From positions 6,040,001 to 6,104,000 of the forward strand of contig NZ_CP070969.1 in the NCBI RefSeq assembly GCF_017086365.1: 64,000 bases of DNA. The letters are read 5' to 3'. The position numbers and the translations under genes are program-made. The stretch comes from Paenibacillus tianjinensis. GTDB taxonomy: Bacteria > Bacillota > Bacilli > Paenibacillales > Paenibacillaceae. A model generated the notes under the pieces. The model saw nothing but the letters and a program-made list of their open reading frames with translations. It was not told the DNA's origin and searched no databases. Below are positions 4,012-26,755 of the stretch, piece after piece (position 1 is the first letter of the stretch; each line of letters starts with the position of its first letter).

Positions 4012-6097
4012 GTTTATCACCACGTTTCTTCATATGTTTGCGGAGCAGCAGAAGCAGCGCTACAATAACCAGGGCAACCACAAGCACCACGGCAATGACA
4101 AAACCAAGCACATCGCTGCGTTCCACGATTTGCGATATTGCGGAGTCAGACTTTGCCCCCGTAACCGTCTTGAACCGGTACGCGCTGACGTTTCCGTCCT
4201 TGTCCGCCACCACACCGTCACCATAGACCTTCCACTTGTCCTTTTCGCTGGCGATCAGCTTGGAAGCCAGGTAATAATCCCCCGAGTTCACCGCTGTTAC
4301 CGCCATAAGCCCGCGGCCGCTTTCGTAGGGGGAATCCACCAGCTGCAAAGTTCCAATCGCTGCACCGTACTGCTCTTCAAGGCTCATTTTCTCATTGGAA
4401 ACCAGCGTTGCTCCGTCCTTGCTGTACCTGAAATACAGCTTGTCATTGCTATCCCGGATGACCTTATTGTTCTTATAGGAACCAATGGCCAGAATATTGT
4501 TGTTCTTCAGGTTGTCCGCACTGACCTCATCCGTGTAATAATGAATGTCTCCGGTATTCCCGCTCGTATATTGACCCAGCAGATTAAAGACATTTGCCAG
4601 ACTCTGATACGTATAGTCATCCATCTCCTGCGGCAGAACTACGGCAACATGGTTGTAGATTCCGTCACGCAGGAACGGATACGGGTAATTGTTAAACAGC
4701 AGGTCCGTACGGTCTTTAGTATTCAGATGCAGCAGTGACTCCTTGCCGATATACGCCCAGGGCATCTGCTCCGTATTCGGCGTGCAGACTGCACTCTGCA
4801 TTTCCAGATCAAAGGCTACCTTCACCGAAAAGTTCCCGGAAATCCCCAGGTTCTGCGGCACCGTCAAGGTCAGCGTGTCGCCATTCGCCAGCTCTTTCGT
4901 CAGCTTTTTGCTGCCGATCGGCGTATCATTGATGCTTACCGTAACAAGTGAGCGGGCAAAATCCAGATTCTCCGCATAGCGGAAATCGAGACTGATTTTC
5001 CCGGAATCGGCAATCGAGCGGTTGGACGGCAAAGAGACAAAATACGTCTGCTCCCGGTGGTTCGGCCCGGATAACTTATCTCCGGTCTCCGTGAGCGTCA
5101 CATCCGAACTGATGACAGAAGCCGGCTCGTTCACCTCTGTAGCATCATCGATCACCTTCAAATCCCTATTCATCTGACTCATCAGCCCGGTGCTCGCAGC
5201 CATTCTTCCAGCCTTGATCAGCAGACTCTCGTCCTTCGAGGTTACTACCAGCGTAGGCCGGGTATCCTTGTTCACCAGCTGGATCAGCGCATGTGTGGTC
5301 AGATCCTCTGTCCCGCTGAGCAGCTGCTTCAGTTCACCCGGCACATGGTCGTACATGGCGACCAGCACCACCGCATTCTTGTCTTGCACGGAATCCTCCC
5401 GGTAAGGCAGCATTCCGATCGTCTTATCCGTCAGGGTATTCCCTTTAGCGAATCCCGACAGGGCATAAGTGGCCGACTCCAGCTCAGCACTGCTGGCATT
5501 CACCGGCACCGTCATAAGACTCTTATTGCTCTTTACGGTATCTATTCCGGAGAACCGTTCGCTGAAATCACGGATGCCCCCGGTCAGTGCTTTGGAAGTA
5601 TAGGTCACAGCAATGCCGGAAGTATTGAAAAAGTGCAGCCAGTTATCGGACGAGTTGTCCACATAACATACCTGATTATCGTCCCCGGCCGTCTTGAGAT
5701 CCCCCTGCAGGGTGAGTGTGTTGCTGTCTTCCTTCAGAAAACCTTTAGGCGCAGGAATACTCAACATCTGCTCCCCGTTATTGTCCGGAGAAGGACGGAA
5801 CGAGTAGAAGGGAGTGCCGTTCAGCGACAGGGTTACACTGGACTGCTGGTCCTTCGTAATTTGCGAAATTTGGAAGTGCAGATTGATCGTCACACTGTCC
5901 ACATTCCAGTAATCCATCACCGAAAAATACTGCTGCTGCGCCTCTCCGCCCGAGAGCGAAGTATCGCTGCCTGTAAAGGAGGTCTCATACGTCAGTTTGC
6001 CAGCTCCGGGAAGTGCAGCGGCGGCAGCGGCTGCCGGAAGCTGAATCAGGACAAGGGAGAGGCAGAGCGCCCATATCATCATCTGTTTTTTTATCAT
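4001..6097 (-). CDS. ydaN: YdaN/BcsB-like membrane-anchored polysaccharide synthesis subunit
   Basis: Protein of 698 residues with a signal peptide (residues 1-27), a long extracytoplasmic beta-rich body and one C-terminal transmembrane helix (about 665-690) followed by basic residues. The arrangement matches the cellulose synthase regulatory subunit BcsB and B. subtilis YdaN. Such proteins sit beside the synthase and guide the growing chain outward. It lies 42 bases after the glycosyltransferase gene and overlaps the c-di-GMP receptor gene, so synthase, partner and receptor are made together. The start at 6097 has AGGAGA upstream. Confidence 0.85.
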   Translation of the reverse strand: MIKKQMMIWALCLSLVLIQLPAAAAAAALPGAGKLTYETSFTGSDTSLSGGEAQQQYFSVMDYWNVDSVTINLHFQISQITKDQQSSVTLSLNGTPFYSFRPSPDNNGEQMLSIPAPKGFLKEDSNTLTLQGDLKTAGDDNQVCYVDNSSDNWLHFFNTSGIAVTYTSKALTGGIRDFSERFSGIDTVKSNKSLMTVPVNASSAELESATYALSGFAKGNTLTDKTIGMLPYREDSVQDKNAVVLVAMYDHVPGELKQLLSGTEDLTTHALIQLVNKDTRPTLVVTSKDESLLIKAGRMAASTGLMSQMNRDLKVIDDATEVNEPASVISSDVTLTETGDKLSGPNHREQTYFVSLPSNRSIADSGKISLDFRYAENLDFARSLVTVSINDTPIGSKKLTKELANGDTLTLTVPQNLGISGNFSVKVAFDLEMQSAVCTPNTEQMPWAYIGKESLLHLNTKDRTDLLFNNYPYPFLRDGIYNHVAVVLPQEMDDYTYQSLANVFNLLGQYTSGNTGDIHYYTDEVSADNLKNNNILAIGSYKNNKVIRDSNDKLYFRYSKDGATLVSNEKMSLEEQYGAAIGTLQLVDSPYESGRGLMAVTAVNSGDYYLASKLIASEKDKWKVYGDGVVADKDGNVSAYRFKTVTGAKSDSAISQIVERSDVLGFVIAVVLVVALVIVALLLLLRKHMKKRGDKHET

Positions 6098-17459: not shown

Positions 17460-20400
17460 TCATTCTAAAGCTGCGTCTGTTCGAGGAATGGCGAAGGAAA
17501 TCCGGGTTCCCCTGCCGGGCACACTCTCAATCAGCAAACCGGTTCCGTATATTTTGAGCAGCCGCCGCTGAATATTTCTCAGACCAATACCGCCTCCGGT
17601 ACGTTCTTCCGAGAGTACCTCACCAATCCGTTCATGGGACATGCCGATTCCATCATCAGAGACGGCAACCACCAGCTGCCGCGGCAGAAGCCTGATCGAC
17701 AGCAGGACTGTTCCACCGGTTTCCTTCTGCATCAGTCCATGGTTTACGGCGTTTTCAACAATTGGCTGAATGCTGAGCGGAGGGACCAGCTCCCTGATTC
17801 TCTCGGGTACATCGATTTCAATGTTCAGCCGTTCGTCAAACCTCGCCTTCTCCAAGGCCAGATAAGAGCGCACCAGCTCCAGCTCCTTCCCGATCGGCAC
17901 GGTTTGCCCGCGGTTCTGAAAATCAAAGCTACTGCGCAGATATTGGCTGAGATCCAGCAGCAGATCGGTTGCCTTCTCCGGATCATCCGGGCAAACCGAG
18001 ATAATGGCATTAAGCGCATTATATAGAAAATGGGGTTTGATCTGCGCCTGAAGGAAGGCAATTTCCGTCTCTACGGACATGCGGATCGACTTGCGCATAT
18101 CCAGCAGGGTCTGCGCACGCGCCCTGAATTCCCTCAGCTCCACAGGCTGGCTCAAATAATCATTGGCACCTGCCTCAAAAACGGCCTGAATGTCTTCCGG
18201 GCGGTTCCCGGTTGTCAGAACGAGTATAGGCAGCTCTGATAAGATGAATCGCTCACGAATGGCTTGGCATAAGACCAGTCCCGGCATTCCCGGTATAGCC
18301 CAATCCATGATGACCAGATCCAGGTCAGGCTGCCTCTGCATGATCGCGAGCGCCTCAGTACCGCTGACAGCCGTAATCACCTGATGCTTTTCCAGCCGGA
18401 GCGCATTGGAGAGCACCAGCAGATTGACGGGATCATTATCAACAACAAGGATTGTGCAGCATTCCCCTTCCTGGGTCTGCTCCAGCGGAGTTTCTTCCAG
18501 CGCTGCCGCAGCCGCTGTTTCCCAGCCTGTAATCTCCAGATACTCCTGAGCAGGAAATGCCGTCCGGTCTTTCAGGACCGGCAGGGTAAAACGGAACACC
18601 GTCCCTTCTCCCAGGGTGGAATGCACCTCGATCCTTCCACCGTTCAGCTCCACCAGCTTCTGGGTAATGCTGAGGCCCAGACCGTTCTCACGGTACGTTT
18701 TCTGGGCTGCGGCACCTTGCGGATCAAAGGCATCAAAGAGCGTCCGCAGGCGTTCCGGCGAGATTCCTGCCCCGGTATCAGCTACCTGAATAACCACATA
18801 ATCTTCTATAACCTCTGCCGACACAGTTATCACACCCTGATGGGTATAATTTAGGGCATTTGCTAGTAAATTGAACAGAATTTGCGCAAGACGCTGTTCA
18901 TCCGTTTCTAGCAGCGGGAGTTCATCCGGCAGCTCCAGCCTGAAGTTAAGCTTGGGATTGCCCGTCACATGACGGGTAACCTCGATAACAGAAGAAGCTA
19001 CGCTCCGCAGGTCAACAGCCTCCCGCTGCAGGAACAGATCCCCGTGGTTCAGCTTGGCGAAATCCGCCATGTCATTGATCAATGCGGACAGTCTCTTGCC
19101 GGTGGAGACCACCATTGACAGCTGTTCGTTCTGCTTGGCGTTTAACGGGCCTGCCGCCCCTGACGCAAGCGTCTGAGCAATGTTCACAATCCCCTGCAGG
19201 GGTCTGCGCAATTCACGTGAGGTAGCTCCCATAAACTCATCCTTCAGCCCGTCCAGCGTGAGCAGCCTGCGGGAGAGCTGCTCCACTTCCAGGAAGGAAG
19301 CGGCATACTGGCGGGCCATCATAATGGCTTGAAGAAATCCGAACAGAAAAATTTCATAGGATAGCACGTAATAGTGGAACAACAGGTTCCAGACACTGGC
19401 CAGATAATAAATGATGACTACACTCAGACTCTCTATACTGACCATCATCAGGAACATATTCTTCGGATTCTGCCTTGTTCCTACGACCATTGAGTAGAGC
19501 ACAAAGCTGATTGCAACCACACCCCAAGTTAACAGCATCCCCTCCAGATAACTGAAGTACTGTGCCGGAACGAACACTGCGATCAGCAGCAGCACGGAAG
19601 TAATCGCTTTGGAGGCTCTCATAACCGCTTGAGGCATTGGATAGTTGATCGAGTTAGCTACGTATCTGAGCAGATAGTAATAGACAAGTGTGGAGGAGGC
19701 GAGCTGCAGCTTCAGCACAATTTCATAAGGCAGGCCGGGCATTACAGCGGAAATCAATTTCTCACCGTGCGTCAGAATATACACTAGAGCCGCTAAGCTG
19801 AACAATCCCAGGTACAGCGTAATTCCCCGGCTCGCCCTTACCCTGGAGAACATCAGCAGAAACAAGGCAAGCGCAAAAAAACCAAACAGTGTTGCACCGT
19901 CCACAAACAGGGCAAATTCCCGGTGCTTCAGGATCGTTGACTGGTCACCGAGGATGATCGGCTGGACAATCCCGCCGGAAGAATAGTTATAATTCGCCAC
20001 CTGCACAATAACTTCCAATTTATCGCCGTCGACTGCGGCAAATCCCATGTAGGGAATGTTGTTGCTTTTCCCCTGTGACGGGGTTACTGCAGGAAGACCG
20101 CTTCTGCCGATCTCCTGTCCGTTCAGAAATATTCTGCTAGCTGTCCGGATATTAAGCGTCCGCAAGCCGTATATAATATCCTGACCGCCGGAAACCCTCG
20201 CCTGCAGACGGTAGGTGGCGTATCCTTTGGCCTGACTTTTATCTGTATCTGATATGTAGGTATTCCATTTCTCCGGCACATGGATCATCGTGGACACAGA
20301 GGGAGCCGTCCGGTCCGCCCGCGTTGAATGAAAATCCTCCGGTGTCAGCAGCCTGCCACGGTAAAACTCCCATTCCCCGTTCAGCTTCACGGCACCGTCC

Positions 20401-20549
20401 TCTTGAAAATCCCATTCCCGCAGATCGATCACACCCTGCCTAGAAACGGGTATATCCTGCTTAACCATAACATTCTGAAGGATGGAGAACAGCGGCACTA
20501 TGCATACCAGCAGCAGGCTGGCCAGTATGCTCAGCCAATATTTCTTCAT
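17460..20549 (-). CDS. Hybrid sensor: 7TMR-DISM, degenerate HisKA-HATPase, receiver, LytS-type kinase
   Basis: About 1029 residues from ATG 20549 (AAGGGAG upstream; the frame open to 20651 adds 34 codons with no good start). Order: one membrane helix, an extracytoplasmic jelly-roll (7TMR-DISM extracellular, about 50-190), seven helices (about 205-410), HisKA (about 430-500), HATPase (about 535-650), receiver (697-826) and a PF06580-type kinase (827-905) with a second HATPase. The HisKA box reads TSRELRRPL, so the phosphoacceptor His is Arg445. The receiver keeps D749 but its conserved Lys is Gln (YLSQPVE). The C-terminal kinase keeps H840 in IKPHFLYN and looks active. It probably phosphorylates the adjacent response regulator. 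Confidence 0.92.
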   Translation of the reverse strand: MKKYWLSILASLLLVCIVPLFSILQNVMVKQDIPVSRQGVIDLREWDFQEDGAVKLNGEWEFYRGRLLTPEDFHSTRADRTAPSVSTMIHVPEKWNTYISDTDKSQAKGYATYRLQARVSGGQDIIYGLRTLNIRTASRIFLNGQEIGRSGLPAVTPSQGKSNNIPYMGFAAVDGDKLEVIVQVANYNYSSGGIVQPIILGDQSTILKHREFALFVDGATLFGFFALALFLLMFSRVRASRGITLYLGLFSLAALVYILTHGEKLISAVMPGLPYEIVLKLQLASSTLVYYYLLRYVANSINYPMPQAVMRASKAITSVLLLIAVFVPAQYFSYLEGMLLTWGVVAISFVLYSMVVGTRQNPKNMFLMMVSIESLSVVIIYYLASVWNLLFHYYVLSYEIFLFGFLQAIMMARQYAASFLEVEQLSRRLLTLDGLKDEFMGATSRELRRPLQGIVNIAQTLASGAAGPLNAKQNEQLSMVVSTGKRLSALINDMADFAKLNHGDLFLQREAVDLRSVASSVIEVTRHVTGNPKLNFRLELPDELPLLETDEQRLAQILFNLLANALNYTHQGVITVSAEVIEDYVVIQVADTGAGISPERLRTLFDAFDPQGAAAQKTYRENGLGLSITQKLVELNGGRIEVHSTLGEGTVFRFTLPVLKDRTAFPAQEYLEITGWETAAAAALEETPLEQTQEGECCTILVVDNDPVNLLVLSNALRLEKHQVITAVSGTEALAIMQRQPDLDLVIMDWAIPGMPGLVLCQAIRERFILSELPILVLTTGNRPEDIQAVFEAGANDYLSQPVELREFRARAQTLLDMRKSIRMSVETEIAFLQAQIKPHFLYNALNAIISVCPDDPEKATDLLLDLSQYLRSSFDFQNRGQTVPIGKELELVRSYLALEKARFDERLNIEIDVPERIRELVPPLSIQPIVENAVNHGLMQKETGGTVLLSIRLLPRQLVVAVSDDGIGMSHERIGEVLSEERTGGGIGLRNIQRRLLKIYGTGLLIESVPGRGTRISFAIPRTDAALE

Positions 20550-20611
20550 ATTCTCTGCTCCCTTCTGCTTTATGTGAGAAATTATACCTTGTATGACTTG
20601 GGTTAATAAAG

Positions 20612-20644
20612 AAAAAAACCGATTCCCATATACTTCGGAATCGG
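20612..20644 (-). terminator. Terminator of xpt-pbuX
   Basis: CCGATTCC and GGAATCGG pair and are followed on the minus strand by TTTTTTTC, 27 bases after the pbuX stop. Confidence 0.9.
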
Positions 20645-20670
20645 CGGTCATTCTTTTAATAGATTAGATT

Positions 20671-21978
20671 TTATTTGATTTCCGGCGCTGCCGCCGGAGA
20701 TGCTGCCGAAACAGCGTGATCCTGCGTTTTTGACAAGCAGATATTCAGGATAATCGCCGTCAGGGAACCCGAGACAATTCCGTTCTGCAGCAGCATTCTG
20801 GCGAACTCCGGCAGCTGATCGAACATGGACGGCAATACGGCCGACCCGAGACCTACAGCGATACTGCAGGCGGCAATCAGCAGATTGCCGTCTTTGCGCA
20901 GATCCACCTCGGACAGAATGGACATCCCGGAAGCGGCAACGGACCCGAACATCACGATCATTGCACCGCCCAGCACCGCATTCGGTACAACGGTTGTCAG
21001 CGCAGCCAGCTTAGGCAGCAGACCCAGCACAACCATAATTCCGCCTGCCGCGAAGATCACATTGCGTGTCTTGACACGGGTCAGGGACAAGAGGCCGACA
21101 TTCTGGGAGAACGCCGTATACGGAAAAGCGTTGAATAGCCCGCCCAGCATAATCGCCAGCCCTTCAGAGCGCAGGCCGTTCACGATTTGCTTATCCTCCA
21201 CCTTCTGATCCGTAGCCTTGCCGACCGCGAAATACACACCGGTCGATTCGACCATCGAGACGATATTGACAATAATCATCGTGAAAATTGCCGTCACACT
21301 GAACTGCGGCCAGCCGAAATAGAAAGGCTGGGCGATACTGACGTAAGAGGCCGTGCCCACGGCAGCGAAATCGACCAGACCGATAAAATAGCCGATTGCC
21401 GTACCGACAGCGAGGCCTACCAGCACGGAAACGGAACGCAGGAAGCCTGTAGCCAGCCGGTTCACTGCAAGGATAACCAGCAGCGTGATCAAGGCCAGCA
21501 ACAAATTGCGGGGCTGTCCGAAATCGGGGCTGCCCTGACCGCCGGCCACATTGTTCATCGCTACCGGAATGAGCGACAGTCCGATGATCGTCACCACAGA
21601 TCCGGTGACTACCGTAGGGAAGAACTTCAGCAGCTTTCCGTAAACCGGGGCTGCCAGCACAACAAACAATCCGGAAATAATAATCGCACCATAAGCCGTC
21701 GCCAGGTTAGACCCCGAAGCAATCGCAATGATCGGGCTGACCGCAGTAAAGGTACAGCCCAGAACAACCGGAAGGCCGCTGCCGAAGTGTTTGCTGCCGA
21801 TTACCTGCAGTAATGTGGCCAACCCGCAGGTGAATAAATCGGCGGCGATCAGATAAGCCATCTGCGCTGCGCTTAAATTCAGTGCGCCCCCTACAACCAG
21901 CGGTACAATGACCGCCCCCGCGTACATCGCCAGCACATGCTGTAATCCCAGGGCGAATATCTTCTGCTTACTTAACAT
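20671..21978 (-). CDS. pbuX: Xanthine permease
   Basis: Protein of 435 residues with about 14 hydrophobic segments and the nucleobase-ascorbate/uracil-xanthine permease fold. Family motifs are visible: the N-terminal GLQHVLAMYAGAVIVPL, and SMVESTGVYFAVG followed by NAFPYTAFSQNVGL. It should import xanthine with protons for salvage. The start ATG (21978) overlaps the end of xpt by 7 bases, the same xpt-pbuX order as in B. subtilis. Expression is expected to be governed by the riboswitch leader upstream of xpt. Confidence 0.95.
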   Translation of the reverse strand: MLSKQKIFALGLQHVLAMYAGAVIVPLVVGGALNLSAAQMAYLIAADLFTCGLATLLQVIGSKHFGSGLPVVLGCTFTAVSPIIAIASGSNLATAYGAIIISGLFVVLAAPVYGKLLKFFPTVVTGSVVTIIGLSLIPVAMNNVAGGQGSPDFGQPRNLLLALITLLVILAVNRLATGFLRSVSVLVGLAVGTAIGYFIGLVDFAAVGTASYVSIAQPFYFGWPQFSVTAIFTMIIVNIVSMVESTGVYFAVGKATDQKVEDKQIVNGLRSEGLAIMLGGLFNAFPYTAFSQNVGLLSLTRVKTRNVIFAAGGIMVVLGLLPKLAALTTVVPNAVLGGAMIVMFGSVAASGMSILSEVDLRKDGNLLIAACSIAVGLGSAVLPSMFDQLPEFARMLLQNGIVSGSLTAIILNICLSKTQDHAVSAASPAAAPEIK

Positions 21979-22577
21979 CCCGCACTCTCCTTAATCTGTT
22001 CTTCATTAGCGATAAAATGAATTTCTCCCGGAGCCATGGAAGAGATGCGTGCCAGTGCATGCACCGGAATGCCTCTCTTCTCCAGCAGGCTCCGCCCTTC
22101 CTGAAAGCTCTTCTCAATCACACAGCCCACGCCCAGCAGCTGTGCCCCTGATTCCTTAACGATATCGGCCAGTCCGACCAGCGCAGCCCCGGTAGCGAGG
22201 AAATCATCAACGATCAGCACCTTGTCCTCCGGCCCCAGATATTTCTGTGAAATGCTGATCAGATAGTCTTCCTGACGGGTAAACGAATGAACCGGTGCCG
22301 AATAGACCCCTTCTGACAAGGTAACAGCCTTCTTTTTCTTGGCATAAATAAAGGGAACTCCCAGCGCAATCCCCGCTGCCATGGCGAACTGGATTCCGCT
22401 GGCCTCCACGGTTAAGATCTTTGTAATCGGCAAATGTCCAAAAACCGTCTTGAACTCCTGCCCGATCTGCAGGGCAAGCTCTGTATCCACCTGGTGGTTC
22501 AGAAACGAGTCTACCTTCAGTACGGTCTCCGACAGAATCAGGCCTTCTTCTCTAATACGTTCCTCTAATACTCTCAT
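21972..22577 (-). CDS. xpt: Xanthine phosphoribosyltransferase
   Basis: Protein of 201 residues starting MRVLEERIREEGLIL. The PRPP-binding loop is VLIVDDFLATGAALVGL (about 125-141), the signature of type I phosphoribosyltransferases. It converts xanthine and PRPP to XMP, so it links imported xanthine to the nucleotide pool. It is the first gene of a two-gene operon with pbuX. A long structured leader (22628-22861) carries a guanine aptamer, a ykkC-class aptamer and a terminator. Confidence 0.96.
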   Translation of the reverse strand: MRVLEERIREEGLILSETVLKVDSFLNHQVDTELALQIGQEFKTVFGHLPITKILTVEASGIQFAMAAGIALGVPFIYAKKKKAVTLSEGVYSAPVHSFTRQEDYLISISQKYLGPEDKVLIVDDFLATGAALVGLADIVKESGAQLLGVGCVIEKSFQEGRSLLEKRGIPVHALARISSMAPGEIHFIANEEQIKESAGC

Positions 22578-22627: not shown

Positions 22628-22680
22628 ACAAAAAAAGGACAGATTCTCTTGAGCGTTTCTCTCAAGTGAATCTGTCCTTC
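22628..22680 (-). terminator. Regulated terminator of the xpt leader
   Basis: On the minus strand AGGACAGATTCACTTGAG pairs with CTCAAGAGAATCTGTCCT (one mismatch) and is followed by TTTTTTT. Its 5' arm shares the bases GATTCAC with the 3' side of the proposed ykkC-class aptamer P1 helix, so ligand binding there would block termination. It ends about 50 bases before the xpt start. Confidence 0.92.
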
Positions 22681-22793
22681 TGGGTTTTTGTCCCTAAGTG
22701 GTGTAACACATCGCAGTGTCCGCATCGCTTGGACCAGCCCTTCCTATGCCGCCGTACGGCATAAAAAACGGAACCCTAGATGCGCTATTTCAC
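22666..22793 (-). ncRNA. ykkC-class riboswitch aptamer, probably the PRPP type
   Basis: The minus strand shows the ykkC hallmark segments in order: CTAGGGTTCCG (22769-22779), a P2 hairpin ATGCCGTACGGCGGCAT, GCTGGTCCAAGCGATG, and GGGACAAAAACCCAGAAGG near 22675-22695. A short P1 can form between GTGAA (22789-22793) and TTCAC (22666-22670). Guanidine, ppGpp, PRPP and nucleoside-diphosphate subtypes share this core. The guanine aptamer directly upstream and the PRPP-using salvage gene downstream favour PRPP. The ligand is an inference. Confidence 0.82.
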
Positions 22794-22861
22794 TCATAGT
22801 CGGATAATTACGTTGGTTATCCGGTAGAAACTTATGGGCCATATTCCCAAGATTATATGAG
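22793..22861 (-). ncRNA. Purine riboswitch aptamer, guanine-type
   Basis: The minus strand reads CTCATATAATC, then a P2 stem with the loop ATATGGCCC, TTTCTACCGGATAACC and ATTATCCGACTATGAG. These are the conserved core blocks of the purine aptamer. The specificity base before UAUGAG is C, as in guanine/hypoxanthine-binding xpt leaders (adenine switches have U). Its 3' P1 strand abuts the 5' P1 strand of the downstream ykkC-class aptamer. Confidence 0.95.
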
Positions 22862-22896
22862 TTGTTATATGAATAATCGGTTTAAAACCTTTGTAT

Positions 22897-22925
22897 ATCT
22901 TACACGCTCTGTGCGCTCCTTACAA
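22897..22925 (-). promoter_or_regulatory. Probable promoter of the xpt leader
   Basis: On the minus strand TTGTAA (22920-22925) and TAAGAT (22897-22902) are separated by 17 bases and would start transcription about 25-30 bases before the guanine aptamer. Each hexamer matches 4 of 6 consensus positions. Confidence 0.55.
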
Positions 22926-23194: not shown

Positions 23195-26100
23195 ATGAAT
23201 ATAAAACAGAAAATCGGGTTTGCAACTGTAACCTCTGTACTGCTCTTAGGCAGTATGATTACTATAGCTATTATTTATCTTGAAGGAGTTCCGCTGTACC
23301 TGTCCACAGGGATGGGAGCGGCAGGCATGCTGCTGGCTCTATACCTGATGACAGATGTTCAGCGGAATTTGAGCCGGGGCATGAACAGGATTATTAGTAT
23401 AACAGAGGATATTGCCCAAGGCACACTTAATGCCTCGGGTATAGCTGCCCAAAGCGATGAATTCGGACAGCTGGCACAGTCCTTTTATAATTTGGGGATT
23501 GATCTGCATCATAAAACAGCCGAGGAACGCAGCCTGCGGCTGAAGGCTGAAGAACAGGCCTGGATCAATACCCAGGTCTCGGAAATTGCGCTGATGCTTC
23601 AGGGCTCCGTGCATTTACAGACCGCCGCACGCATCTTCATCAGCAAGCTGACTTCTGCTGCCGGAGGTCTTTATGGAGCGGTATATATGAGGCAGGGCAA
23701 TCGCCTGCATTTCACGGCCGGCTACGCCTTCGATGAAGAAGCTTCGAACCGCAAGCCCATTGAACTAGGCAGCGGACTGGTCGGCCAATGTGCAGTGGAT
23801 AAGCAACTGATGGTACTGCACAATCTTCCGGAGAATTATATCAGGGTTCATTCGGGACTTGGTGAAGCTCCTCCCTCCACACTGATTGTATTGCCGGTTC
23901 TTTATGAGACTGAGGTTGTCGCCGTTGTTGAGCTGGCTATGATGAACGGGCTTGGCGACAAGGAGCAGCAATTAATTGAAAGGACCGGCCAGAACATGGG
24001 GGTTCTGATCAACACCCTGGCCGATGTCGTCCGTATTGAAGAACTGCTCAGTGAAACTCAACTGCAGAAGGATGAACTGGAGGCCCAGACTGAGGAGCTG
24101 CAAGCCCAGACAGAGGAACTGGAAGCACAGAGGGAAGAATTGCTGGCCCAGACTGAGGAGCTGGCTGTCTCCAACAGCAATCTTCAGCAGCAGATGGAAT
24201 TGACCGCAAGGCAGAAGGAAGAGATTCAGGAGCAGGCCGACGAGCTGCTGGCCCAGACTGAGGAGCTGGCTGCCTCCAACAGCAACCTCCAGCAGCAGAT
24301 GGAACTGACCGCAAGGCAGAAGGAAGAGATTCAGGAGCAGGCCGACGAGCTGCTGGCTCAGACGAATCAGCTGCAGGATCAGAAGGAGGAACTCCAGGCG
24401 CAGGCCCAGGAGCTGCTGGCCCAGACTGAGGAGCTGGCTGTCTCCAACAGCAACCTTCAGCTGCAGATGGAGCTGACCGCAAGGCAGAAGGAAGAGATTC
24501 AGGAGCAGGCCGACGAGCTGCTGGCCCAGACGAATCAGCTGCAGGACCAGAAGGAGGAACTCCAGGCGCAGGCCCAGGAGCTGCTTGCCCAGACTGAGGA
24601 GCTGGCTGCCTCCAACAGCAGCCTCCAGCAGCAGATGGAGCTGACCGAACAGCAGAAGGCCGAAATTAAGGCCCAGGCGGAAGAAATTTTCATGGCCGCC
24701 CAATACAAATCGGAATTTCTCGCCAACGTGTCCCATGAGCTGCGCACACCGCTGAACAGTCTGTTGATCCTGTCACAGATTCTGGCCGAGAACAAGGAAG
24801 GCAATCTGGATGTGAAACAGCTGGAATACGTGCATACCATCTTCTCGGCAGGCAAGGACCTCCTGCAGCTGATTGATGAGATTCTCGACCTGGCCAAGCT
24901 GGAAGTCGGCAAAATGACTCCTGTTCTTGAGCCTGTCCCGCTGAACGATATCAGCAGCCACCTGTTCCGCCGGTTCGAGCAGCAGGCGAAGAAAAAGAAT
25001 CTGCGCTTTGATGTCCACTGTGACAGCAGACTGCCTGAGCACCTGATGACCGACGGGCACAGACTGCAGCAGATTATGAATAACCTGCTCTCCAACGCCT
25101 TAAAGTTCACACCTGAGCAAGGCTCCGTCTCCCTGTCGGTCCGCACGAGCGGCAATGAGATCATCTTCTCGGTCAGCGACACGGGAATCGGCATCGCCGC
25201 TTCCAAACTGGAGAGTATCTTCGAAGCCTTCCAGCAGGCGGACGGAACAACCAGCCGCAAATACGGGGGTACAGGTCTCGGACTAACCATCTGCCGGGAG
25301 CTGGCTACTCTGCTGGGCGGAAGGATCGAGGTTGACTCTGTGGAAGGGAAGGGAAGCACCTTTGCCCTGATTCTTCCTGCGGAGCTGCCGGATGAGCATG
25401 ACCTGATCCAGGCAGCCGCCTCCATTGCCGCTGCAGCCCACCATGTTGACGAGCAAGATATAGCTCCGGTCAATGAGCACTCTGCCTTCCGCGAATCCTT
25501 CGTACCGGATATTTCAATCTCCAATCCCAAGCTGCTCCAGTATGCAGAGATGGATGATGACCGGAATAATCTGGCAAGCGGCGACACACTGCTCCTGATT
25601 ATCGAGGAAGATGCCGAGTTCGCGACTATTCTGCTGAACCTGGCACGCAGCAGAGGCTTTAAGGCTATTGTAGCCTTCCAGGGCGACCAGGGGCTTGCCC
25701 TTGCCCATGCTTACAAGCCGGATGCTATCCTGCTCGATCTGCATCTTCCGGTACTGGACGGCTGGGCGATCATCAGCCGGTTGAAGAGCCGGCCGGAGCT
25801 GCGCCATATTCCGGTTCATGTCATTTCAACTGCCGAAGAGAACCAGCAGAGCCTGGTAATGGGTGCACTTTCCTTCTGGAAAAAACCGAGTGACCAGACT
25901 GAGCTGGAAACAGCCTTCCTGCAGATTGAGACGTACATCCGCCGTCCGGTCAAGAGCCTGCTGATCGTCGAGGATAACCACCTCCTGCGCAGCAGTCTGG
26001 TGGAATTCATCGCACATCCCGATGTGCGGGTTGTCGCTGTAGGTACCGGACGGGAAGCAATGGAACAGCTGGGCAGCCATCATTTTGACTGCATGGTGCT

Positions 26101-26755
26101 TGATCTGGGCTTGTCAGACATCAGCGGCTTCGATCTGCTTGAGCAGATCAAGACCAACCGCAAGCTGCAGACGCTGCCGGTCATTATCTATACGGGCAAG
26201 GATCTCAGCAAAACCGATGAACAGCGCCTGAAGCATTACGCCGAGAGCATCGTAATCAAGAATGTGCGTTCCATGGAACGGCTCTTTGATGAAACCGCAT
26301 TGTACCTGCACCGCAAACACGCCGATCTGCCGCCGGACAAGCAGGAGCTGATCGAGAAGCTGCATAATCCGGAGGCCGCCTTTGCCGGCAAGCAGATCCT
26401 GCTGGTCGATGATGATATGCGCAATATTTTTGCTCTATCGAGTGTGCTTGAAGGGTATAATATGGAGATCAGCTTTGCCCAGAACGGCCGGGAAGCCCTG
26501 GAGCATCTGGAGCAGCATCCGGAAACGCAGCTAGTATTCATGGACATCATGATGCCGGAAATGGATGGCTATGAGACCATGAAGCATATCCGGGCAAATC
26601 CTGCCTATGACCAGCTTGTCATTATTGCCCTAACCGCTCGCGCCTTGGAAGAGGACCGGGTAAAATGCCTGCAGGCAGGTGCCTCAGACTATATCTCTAA
26701 GCCGATCAATACTACACAATTGGTCACAGTACTGAAAGTATGGTTAATCCAATAG
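23195..26755 (+). CDS. Hybrid histidine kinase with HAMP, GAF, repeated coiled coil and three receivers
   Basis: Protein of 1186 residues. Two transmembrane helices (about 8-50) with almost no external loop suggest an internal or membrane signal. A HAMP-like segment (about 50-105) and a GAF domain (about 115-285) follow. A long coiled coil (about 290-500) is built from near-identical DNA and protein repeats. Next come HisKA with SHELRTPLN, HATPase, and three receivers. The first has LLDLHLP, the second MVLDLGLSD and the third LVDDDMRN with [13 protein letters not shown]. All key residues of kinase and receivers look intact. It starts at ATG 23195 and is 49 bases upstream of a second kinase gene, so a phosphorelay between them is likely. 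Confidence 0.92.
24070..24690 (+). repeat. In-frame coding repeats for a coiled coil (35- and 21-residue units)
   Basis: Inside the hybrid kinase gene the 35-codon unit [17 protein letters not shown]...EEIQEQAD occurs four times, the last copy divergent. A 21-codon unit [21 protein letters not shown] separates copies 2 and 3 and copies 3 and 4. Unit lengths are 5 and 3 heptads, so gain or loss of a unit keeps both the reading frame and the coiled-coil register. Confidence 0.9.

Follow-up and report, generated by a model that had tools for sequence, protein, structure and literature searches.

Which ligands does the leader of the xpt-pbuX operon read in Paenibacillus tianjinensis, with what effect on transcription, and how does a purine salvage operon come to stand under such control? 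The question is raised by a 64,000-nt stretch of contig NZ_CP070969.1 (hereafter the window), in which a purine aptamer stands directly upstream of an aptamer of the ykkC class, with a single terminator overlapping the 3′ end of the latter (Table 1), as is characteristic of tandem guanine–PRPP riboswitches. In our assessment the leader is very probably a guanine–PRPP tandem riboswitch that controls transcription termination before xpt-pbuX.

Table 1. Features of the xpt-pbuX leader and its target genes in the window (window coordinates)
Feature	Position	Strand	Basis or detail
Putative promoter	22897..22925	-	TTGTAA 22920-22925, 17 nt, TAAGAT 22897-22902
Guanine aptamer	22792..22862	-	RF00167, 75.8 bits
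Guanine P1, 5′ strand ACTCATA	22856-22862	-	Sequence
Guanine aptamer J2/3 GTTTCTACC	22823-22831	-	Sequence
Guanine P1, 3′ strand TATGAGT	22792-22798	-	Sequence
PRPP-type ykkC aptamer including P0	22666..22793	-	RF00442 54.1 bits; R1 118.6 bits; map from primers printed in PMC6031431 (open text)
P0 helix, GTGAA with TTCAC	22789-22793 with 22666-22670	-	Sequence; extendable to 8 bp
Extended P0, 5′ strand TGAGTGAA	22789..22796	-	5 nt (22792-22796) in common with guanine P1 3′ strand
Extended P0, 3′ strand TTCACTTG	22663..22670	-	Within terminator 5′ arm
ykkC P1, CGCATC with GATGCG	22779-22784 with 22721-22726	-	
ykkC key positions	C49 = 22727; G96 = 22680; A103-G104 = 22672-22673	-	
Intrinsic terminator	22630..22679	-	Arms 22661-22679 and 22635-22653; T tract 22630-22636
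xpt, xanthine phosphoribosyltransferase	21972..22577	-	NF006671, 255.6 bits (cut-off 177)
pbuX, xanthine permease	20671..21978	-	TIGR03173, 525.1 bits (cut-off 414.15)

When the whole window was compared with Rfam, the purine family RF00167 matched the minus strand at 22777-22880 far above its gathering threshold of 37 bits (E 1.1e-11), a curated-score match to the three-helix purine aptamer. The specificity base in J3/1, read in GACTATG, is a C (22799), and U51, the position whose change to G marks xanthine-II variants (PMC9295807, open text), is retained in GTTTCTACC, so that the aptamer is of the guanine type. For the second aptamer, the top Rfam match under permissive settings was RF00442 (Guanidine-I) at 22675-22790 on the same strand, below the gathering threshold of 63 bits (E 6.1e-9), and no separate PRPP or ppGpp family was among the Rfam matches for the window. 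The conserved ykkC elements CTAGGGTTCCG, CTGGTCC, ACACC, and GGGANAAAA are all present, and a combined guanine and ykkC pattern occurred once in the window and in 0 of 100 shuffles. The terminator hairpin folds at -25.5 kcal/mol and is followed by T7; a consensus terminator scan of the window did not list this hairpin, a stem mismatch being the probable reason. A promoter scan did not list the putative promoter, and its hexamers are identical or similar in many close relatives. Two further features of the surroundings were observed. No terminator was listed at 20450-20671, between pbuX and a sensor-kinase open reading frame in the same direction (17460-20651) that may be co-transcribed with it, and the translation of a divergent histidine-kinase open reading frame (23195-26755) includes an array of near-identical coiled-coil repeats at window positions 24080-24670.

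A preliminary description made from the letters alone had proposed a guanine-type aptamer with C at the specificity base, a ykkC-class aptamer and one terminator directly behind it, and control of xpt-pbuX; this observation holds, since both aptamers, the terminator, and the two genes, each above its curated cut-off, were recovered, and the Rfam comparison that it had suggested gave the two matches described above. Its limits for the element, 22628..22861, did take in the guanine aptamer but stopped one position short of its end at 22862. Two details of its pairing scheme had to be redrawn: the helix TGAA/TTCAC that it had called the ykkC P1 is P0, the true P1 being CGCATC/GATGCG, and the 3′ strand of guanine P1 does not merely abut the ykkC helix but overlaps P0 by 2 nt, and its extended form by 5 nt. 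The placement of TTCAC inside the 5′ arm of the terminator was correct.

To place the second aptamer among the ykkC subtypes, we numbered the window and its relatives by the primers for the Thermoanaerobacter mathranii PRPP aptamer printed in PMC6031431 (Knappenberger et al. 2018; PDB 6CK5). According to the open text of that paper, P0 sets the PRPP and ppGpp aptamers apart from guanidine-I, positions 49 and 96 part the three classes, and G96, present in >97% of PRPP aptamers, is not found in the ppGpp class. Relatives were collected with a single exact pattern for the tandem, run over GTDB species genomes, which gave 59 stretches, or 58 named loci once L029 had been dropped; L002 and L010 were dropped as copies of the window's own locus. 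In the window, position 49 is a pyrimidine (C), position 96 is a G, and P0 joins the ends, which is the PRPP-type combination. Among the 57 anchored loci (the 58 named loci plus the window, minus L025 and L061, which gave no automatic anchor), all 57 have G96 and all 57 have C or T at position 49. We also built a covariance model of the PRPP-type ykkC aptamer from 39 non-redundant tandem sequences (R1) and a purine aptamer model from 26 tandem loci (R2), the window being included in both. The score of the window with R1 (118.6 bits) is partly high by construction, as it is one of the 39 rows, and the guanidine-I riboswitch of its own genome scored 33.9. Eleven leaders outside the model, found through Xpt, scored 109.8-117.4 bits, and all 58 named loci scored 91.6-141.9 bits with R1 and 66.4-100 bits with R2. 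Based on this homology (C49, G96, P0, and R1 scores), the ligand of the second aptamer is most likely PRPP.

Two other ligands were weighed and rejected on the same four grounds, i.e., positions 49 and 96, P0, and the R1 scores. The top Rfam family, and the fact that some tandem relatives even score slightly above its gathering threshold (maximum 68.0), would be expected if a guanidine-I riboswitch stood behind the guanine aptamer by chance, but we take RF00442 to model the ykkC fold as a whole, all 57 anchored loci have C or T in place of the A typical of guanidine-I, P0 is present, the true guanidine-I riboswitch scores poorly with R1, and the genes are those of purine salvage; we give this reading practically no credence. 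That true guanidine-I riboswitch (L009, 1600071-1600180, 81 bits) was the sole other ykkC aptamer of the genome among the matches listed. In favor of ppGpp sensing, ppGpp and PRPP aptamers have the same fold and a pyrimidine at 49, and one change at position 96 swaps their ligands (PMC6031431, open text). This reading is nevertheless very improbable here, given the invariant G96 and a guanine partner and a PRPP-using enzyme that both suit PRPP. The one ykkC relative with an A at 96 was the dropped L029, which scored 74.4 bits with R1, had no purine aptamer, and lies upstream of ilvE (branched-chain aminotransferase), a ppGpp-type context; it was rejected as a tandem and considered a ppGpp-type locus.

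By the position map, the PRPP-contacting residues A5, G6, G48, C77, C78, A101, A103, and G104 are present in the window, which thus resembles the T. mathranii aptamer in P0, C49, G96, A5-G6, A101, and A103-G104, as far as the open text of PMC6031431 describes it. The window differs from 6CK5 at G105, a residue that touches the PRPP beta-phosphate in the crystal (PMC6031431, open text) and is an A here, and in two extra nucleotides between P0 and A5, so that its affinity or specificity for PRPP may differ. G105 is missing in 20 of the 57 anchored loci, including the window; L018 and L027 lack it, one from Brevibacillus and one from a Paenibacillus without the two-nucleotide insertion of the window's clade.

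How would the two ligands act on one terminator? Three helices (guanine P1, extended P0, and the terminator) would vie for common strands. TATGAGT is the 3′ strand of guanine P1 and at the same time the outer segment of the 5′ strand in extended P0 (TGAGTGAA/TTCACTTG), and the 3′ strand of P0 doubles as part of the terminator 5′ arm. Bound PRPP would stabilize P0, thereby holding the terminator arm, breaking guanine P1, and turning expression on, and bound guanine would stabilize P1, depriving P0 of its 5′ strand, leaving the terminator arm free, and turning expression off. In this scheme the PRPP aptamer would be a removable module nested in the loop of an ordinary guanine-switch antiterminator, and its removal would leave a guanine-only OFF switch. 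The preliminary description had predicted the same logic, i.e., a ykkC ligand that turns expression on through the terminator arm and guanine that opposes it, and this agrees with the sequence, the homologs, and the published systems of Bacillus megaterium and T. mathranii. By analogy with these systems we infer both which ligand the second aptamer binds and which way control runs: the guanine OFF/PRPP ON logic was reported in vitro and in vivo for B. megaterium (PMC5912903, open text), and mutual exclusion of P0 and guanine P1 was already proposed for T. mathranii (PMC6031431, open text). In their open texts, the 2018 discovery paper (PMC5912903) and a 2022 review describe the structural mechanism of the tandem as not yet established.

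Across the relatives, the sequence just 5′ of the P0 core matches the 3′ strand of the same locus (mean 7.0) better than 3′ strands swapped in from other loci (5.75), and 1 of 2000 shuffles scored as high; the comparison comprised 25 unique pairs from 57 loci, used our own scoring scheme, and ignored kinship. Folding was calculated with a program that includes neither ligand nor tertiary contacts, and the ligand-free energies of the window before the terminator are near equal for the guanine P1 state (-57.2) and the extended P0 state (-56.4). The unconstrained fold (-62.2) is neither state, with a pairing between TGAGTG and CACTTA, the latter on the 5′ side of P3, and these energies therefore leave the default state of the window unsettled.

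The window RNA belongs to a known kind, as both guanine–PRPP tandems and the competition between P0 and guanine P1 have been published. In the open text of Sherlock et al. 2018 (eLife 7:e33908, PMC5912903), the tandem resembles the window in a guanine aptamer directly upstream of ykkC subtype 2b, one common terminator, close spacing, and a guanine OFF/PRPP ON response, which for the window is predicted by analogy. The difference lies in the targets. The genes under tandem control are said there to only include those of de novo purine synthesis as far as IMP, codA being mentioned at another point of the paper, and from this gene set it is argued that the gate serves AMP and not GMP. The target in the window, xpt-pbuX, falls outside that set, which is a statement about gene context and not about structure. 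The main text of PMC5912903 contains none of the words xpt, pbuX, xanthine, permease, phosphoribosyltransferase, or Paenibacillus, although the supplementary alignments may hold xpt loci, and in the open papers, taken without their supplements, we found no report of the tandem on xpt-pbuX.

The gene contexts of the 58 named loci suggest that the tandem class often controls salvage genes, against the printed account. While these counts come from a single exact pattern, which would miss divergent tandems, and from a scan in which Paenibacillus is heavily sampled, 36 of the 58 loci precede xpt and 12 precede a purine permease (8 pbuX without xpt, 4 a different member of the xanthine/uracil permease family). 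One locus each precedes a PnrA-like substrate-binding protein (partial) and a relative of MTAP/purine nucleoside phosphorylase. Genes of de novo purine synthesis follow five loci (one purL-like gene, two FGAM synthases, purE, and purC), named by best NCBIfam model, with L025, L041, and L050 under the curated cut-off and the genes of L025 and L041 cut by the end of the stretch, and for the remaining three loci (L016, L030, and L059) the downstream gene lies beyond the stretch. The preliminary description had called salvage unusual relative to the literature; this is right for the accounts printed in the open papers, but salvage or uptake is the majority among the relatives found. The published explanation in terms of AMP and not GMP is incomplete if the usual job of the tandem includes purine salvage. 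Xpt converts xanthine and PRPP to XMP, a precursor of GMP. Two loci have additional aptamers near the first pair: in L039 a second complete guanine and PRPP-type pair (5612-5810), and in L050 a lone second PRPP-type aptamer (5867-5991), which has no guanine aptamer as its partner.

A related paper (PMC9295807) reports in its open text that some Paenibacillus carry guanine-I riboswitches, predicted to be OFF switches, on genes annotated as XPRTase, which is like the window. Unlike in the window, its open text names no PRPP half following that riboswitch, and "PRPP" occurs once in the main text, within a list of ykkC variants. The same paper uses strain DMB5, the organism of L016, for a different riboswitch. 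Three other purine-type riboswitches in the genome of the window (L006, L007, and L008, at 5412628-5412731, 2913372-2913474, and 4998551-4998653) resemble the xanthine-II and guanine-II variants described in PMC9295807 (open text): among them, J2/3 reads TTTCGACC or TCTCGACC where amidohydrolase and Rieske/VanA-like genes follow, and TTTCTACA in the one that precedes a phosphoribosyltransferase.

We then evaluated how constant the tandem is among xpt leaders of the window's own genus. Among 100 genomes, 59 encode a close Xpt (≥75% identity); the other 41 gave no Xpt at ≥75% identity, and among the matches listed the highest for these genomes are <50% identical. The tandem pattern matched 37 of the 59 leaders, and the other 22 were retrieved. 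All 22 have a purine aptamer (20 of the 20 submitted to Rfam, plus L125 and L126 by R2). In half of them (11) the ykkC aptamer is intact and CTGGTCC is changed to CTGGACC or CAGGACC; these are the leaders outside the R1 model whose scores are given above (L105-L108, L110-L112, L114, and L123-L125, which form two separate groups on the Xpt tree). The other 11 of the 22, i.e., 11 of the 59, have a degenerate PRPP half that scores 15.2-68.4 bits with R1, and yet all 11 retain the guanine aptamer, the strands TGAGTGAA and TTCAC, and a hairpin with a T run after it. In five of these leaders (G211, G231, G193, G248, and G249) a short hairpin stands where the PRPP core would be; in L117, L118, and L120, which are related, P2 and P3 remain and P1a/P1b are lost, which may be decay or a changed aptamer; and L121, L122, and L126 are rearranged further. 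Outside the genus, the PRPP core in the xpt leader L167 (G381, another genus of the family) is replaced by an unrelated hairpin sequence (R1 21.1 bits), and the P0 strands, G105, and the terminator are retained.

Explaining the degenerate state on an Xpt tree of 78 rows took 5 changes, at least 4 of them forced by supported branches, and a single clade of the 11 degenerate rows was rejected (p-AU 0.026). These changes are read as losses and not gains because tandems occur in the outgroups (Brevibacillus, Alicyclobacillus, and other Paenibacillaceae) and leftover aptamer sequence persists, which suggests that the PRPP half was lost several times. In the five core-deleted leaders, the ligand-free P0 state is favored over the guanine P1 state by 1.6-2.8 kcal/mol as long as the terminator has not been transcribed, and at full length these leaders fold into guanine P1 plus terminator. 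According to these folding energies, the decayed leaders would respond as expected for a guanine-only OFF switch. Nothing relevant on the loss of tandem riboswitches was found among the open papers listed for this subject.

This decay bears on a further reading, in which the PRPP half of the window's clade, having lost G105, has drifted toward weak PRPP binding, toward a different phosphorylated purine precursor as ligand, or toward loss. The 20 anchored loci without G105, the 11 degenerate leaders within the genus, and the replacement of CTGGTCC in two further groups would all suit such drift. The remaining mappable contact residues are, however, kept in the window, the 11 leaders found through Xpt score well with R1, and 48 of the 59 leaders are intact across a wide Xpt divergence. 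Decay of the PRPP half also does not track the loss of G105 only, as the core replacement in L167 occurred outside the genus in a leader that retains this residue. We thus regard drift as unlikely, and retain PRPP as the second ligand.

Bacillus subtilis has a guanine riboswitch on xpt-pbuX. In the open text of PMC8789054, PurR, a protein with PRPP as inducer, binds upstream of this operon, so that the operon and the two signals are the same as in the window; the difference is that PRPP is read by a protein in B. subtilis and would be read by RNA in the window, upstream of which no PurBox pair was found. The window genome itself encodes PurR (367.2 bits), and in its purE leader (L001, 585835-585936) a guanine aptamer, with no ykkC aptamer beside it, is preceded by a PurBox pair (GCGAACATTTT ... 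AACAATGTTCG) at a spacing of 30. In the 325 nt upstream of the xpt tandem of this genome, neither CGAA nor TTCG was found.

We compared the two routes in a class sample of 111 genomes, of which 32 have an Xpt at E ≤1e-55 and 29 contributed a leader, the window's leader and two of its genus being left out. A guanine aptamer was found in 28 of the 29 leaders (not in L184), and 7 of these 28 are tandem. A strict PurBox pair, with a spacing of 30 or 31 that was set after the loose result below and guided by the 16-17 bp spacer in the open text of PMC8789054 and by the genome's own purE boxes, was present in 7 of the 21 xpt leaders that lack the PRPP aptamer vs 0 of the 7 tandem ones (Fisher p 0.14, kinship ignored). 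None of the 37 tandem xpt leaders of the named set plus the window had the strict pair (vs 7/21, Fisher p 0.0004, kinship ignored). With a loose definition (CGAA and TTCG 26-36 apart), a pair was found at 8 of the 59 tandem loci that the named set and the window make up, namely L011, L012, L017, L040, L053, L059, L060, and L068, with spacings of 33-34, or 30 in L060; seven of these precede permease genes, and the eighth is L059, whose downstream gene lies beyond the stretch. In the class sample the loose pair also occurred in L192 and L194, where it is downstream of the aptamer, and in L175, with a spacing of 28. No PurBox pair was found in 31 further leaders of the genus (L105-L135), including the 11 degenerate ones, which appear to have given up both PRPP routes. 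The contrast between PurBox and PRPP aptamer is a lead and not proof, since kinship among the leaders means that they do not count as independent cases, and since neither a PurBox pair nor a PRPP aptamer is present in 14 of the 21 non-tandem ones.

Overall, as far as the open papers go, the window RNA is a known kind of riboswitch with a target missing from the printed accounts, a changed residue in the binding site, and natural one-input derivatives. We lean somewhat toward a broader view in which PRPP at xpt-pbuX is read either by PurR, as in Bacillus, or by a nested RNA module, as in Paenibacillus, Brevibacillus, and Alicyclobacillus; this module would be excisable and would have decayed several times, turning a two-input IMPLY gate back into a one-input guanine switch, and the usual job of the tandem would include salvage. 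The decay series would provide ready-made one- and two-input versions of one regulator for testing the two-ligand RNA gate, and the split within one genome, with a PurBox pair at purE and RNA at xpt-pbuX, would make a clean case of protein vs RNA sensing. The gene sets found conflict with the printed account of the purpose of the tandem class: PRPP would switch on xanthine import and salvage, a route to GMP, beyond de novo IMP synthesis.
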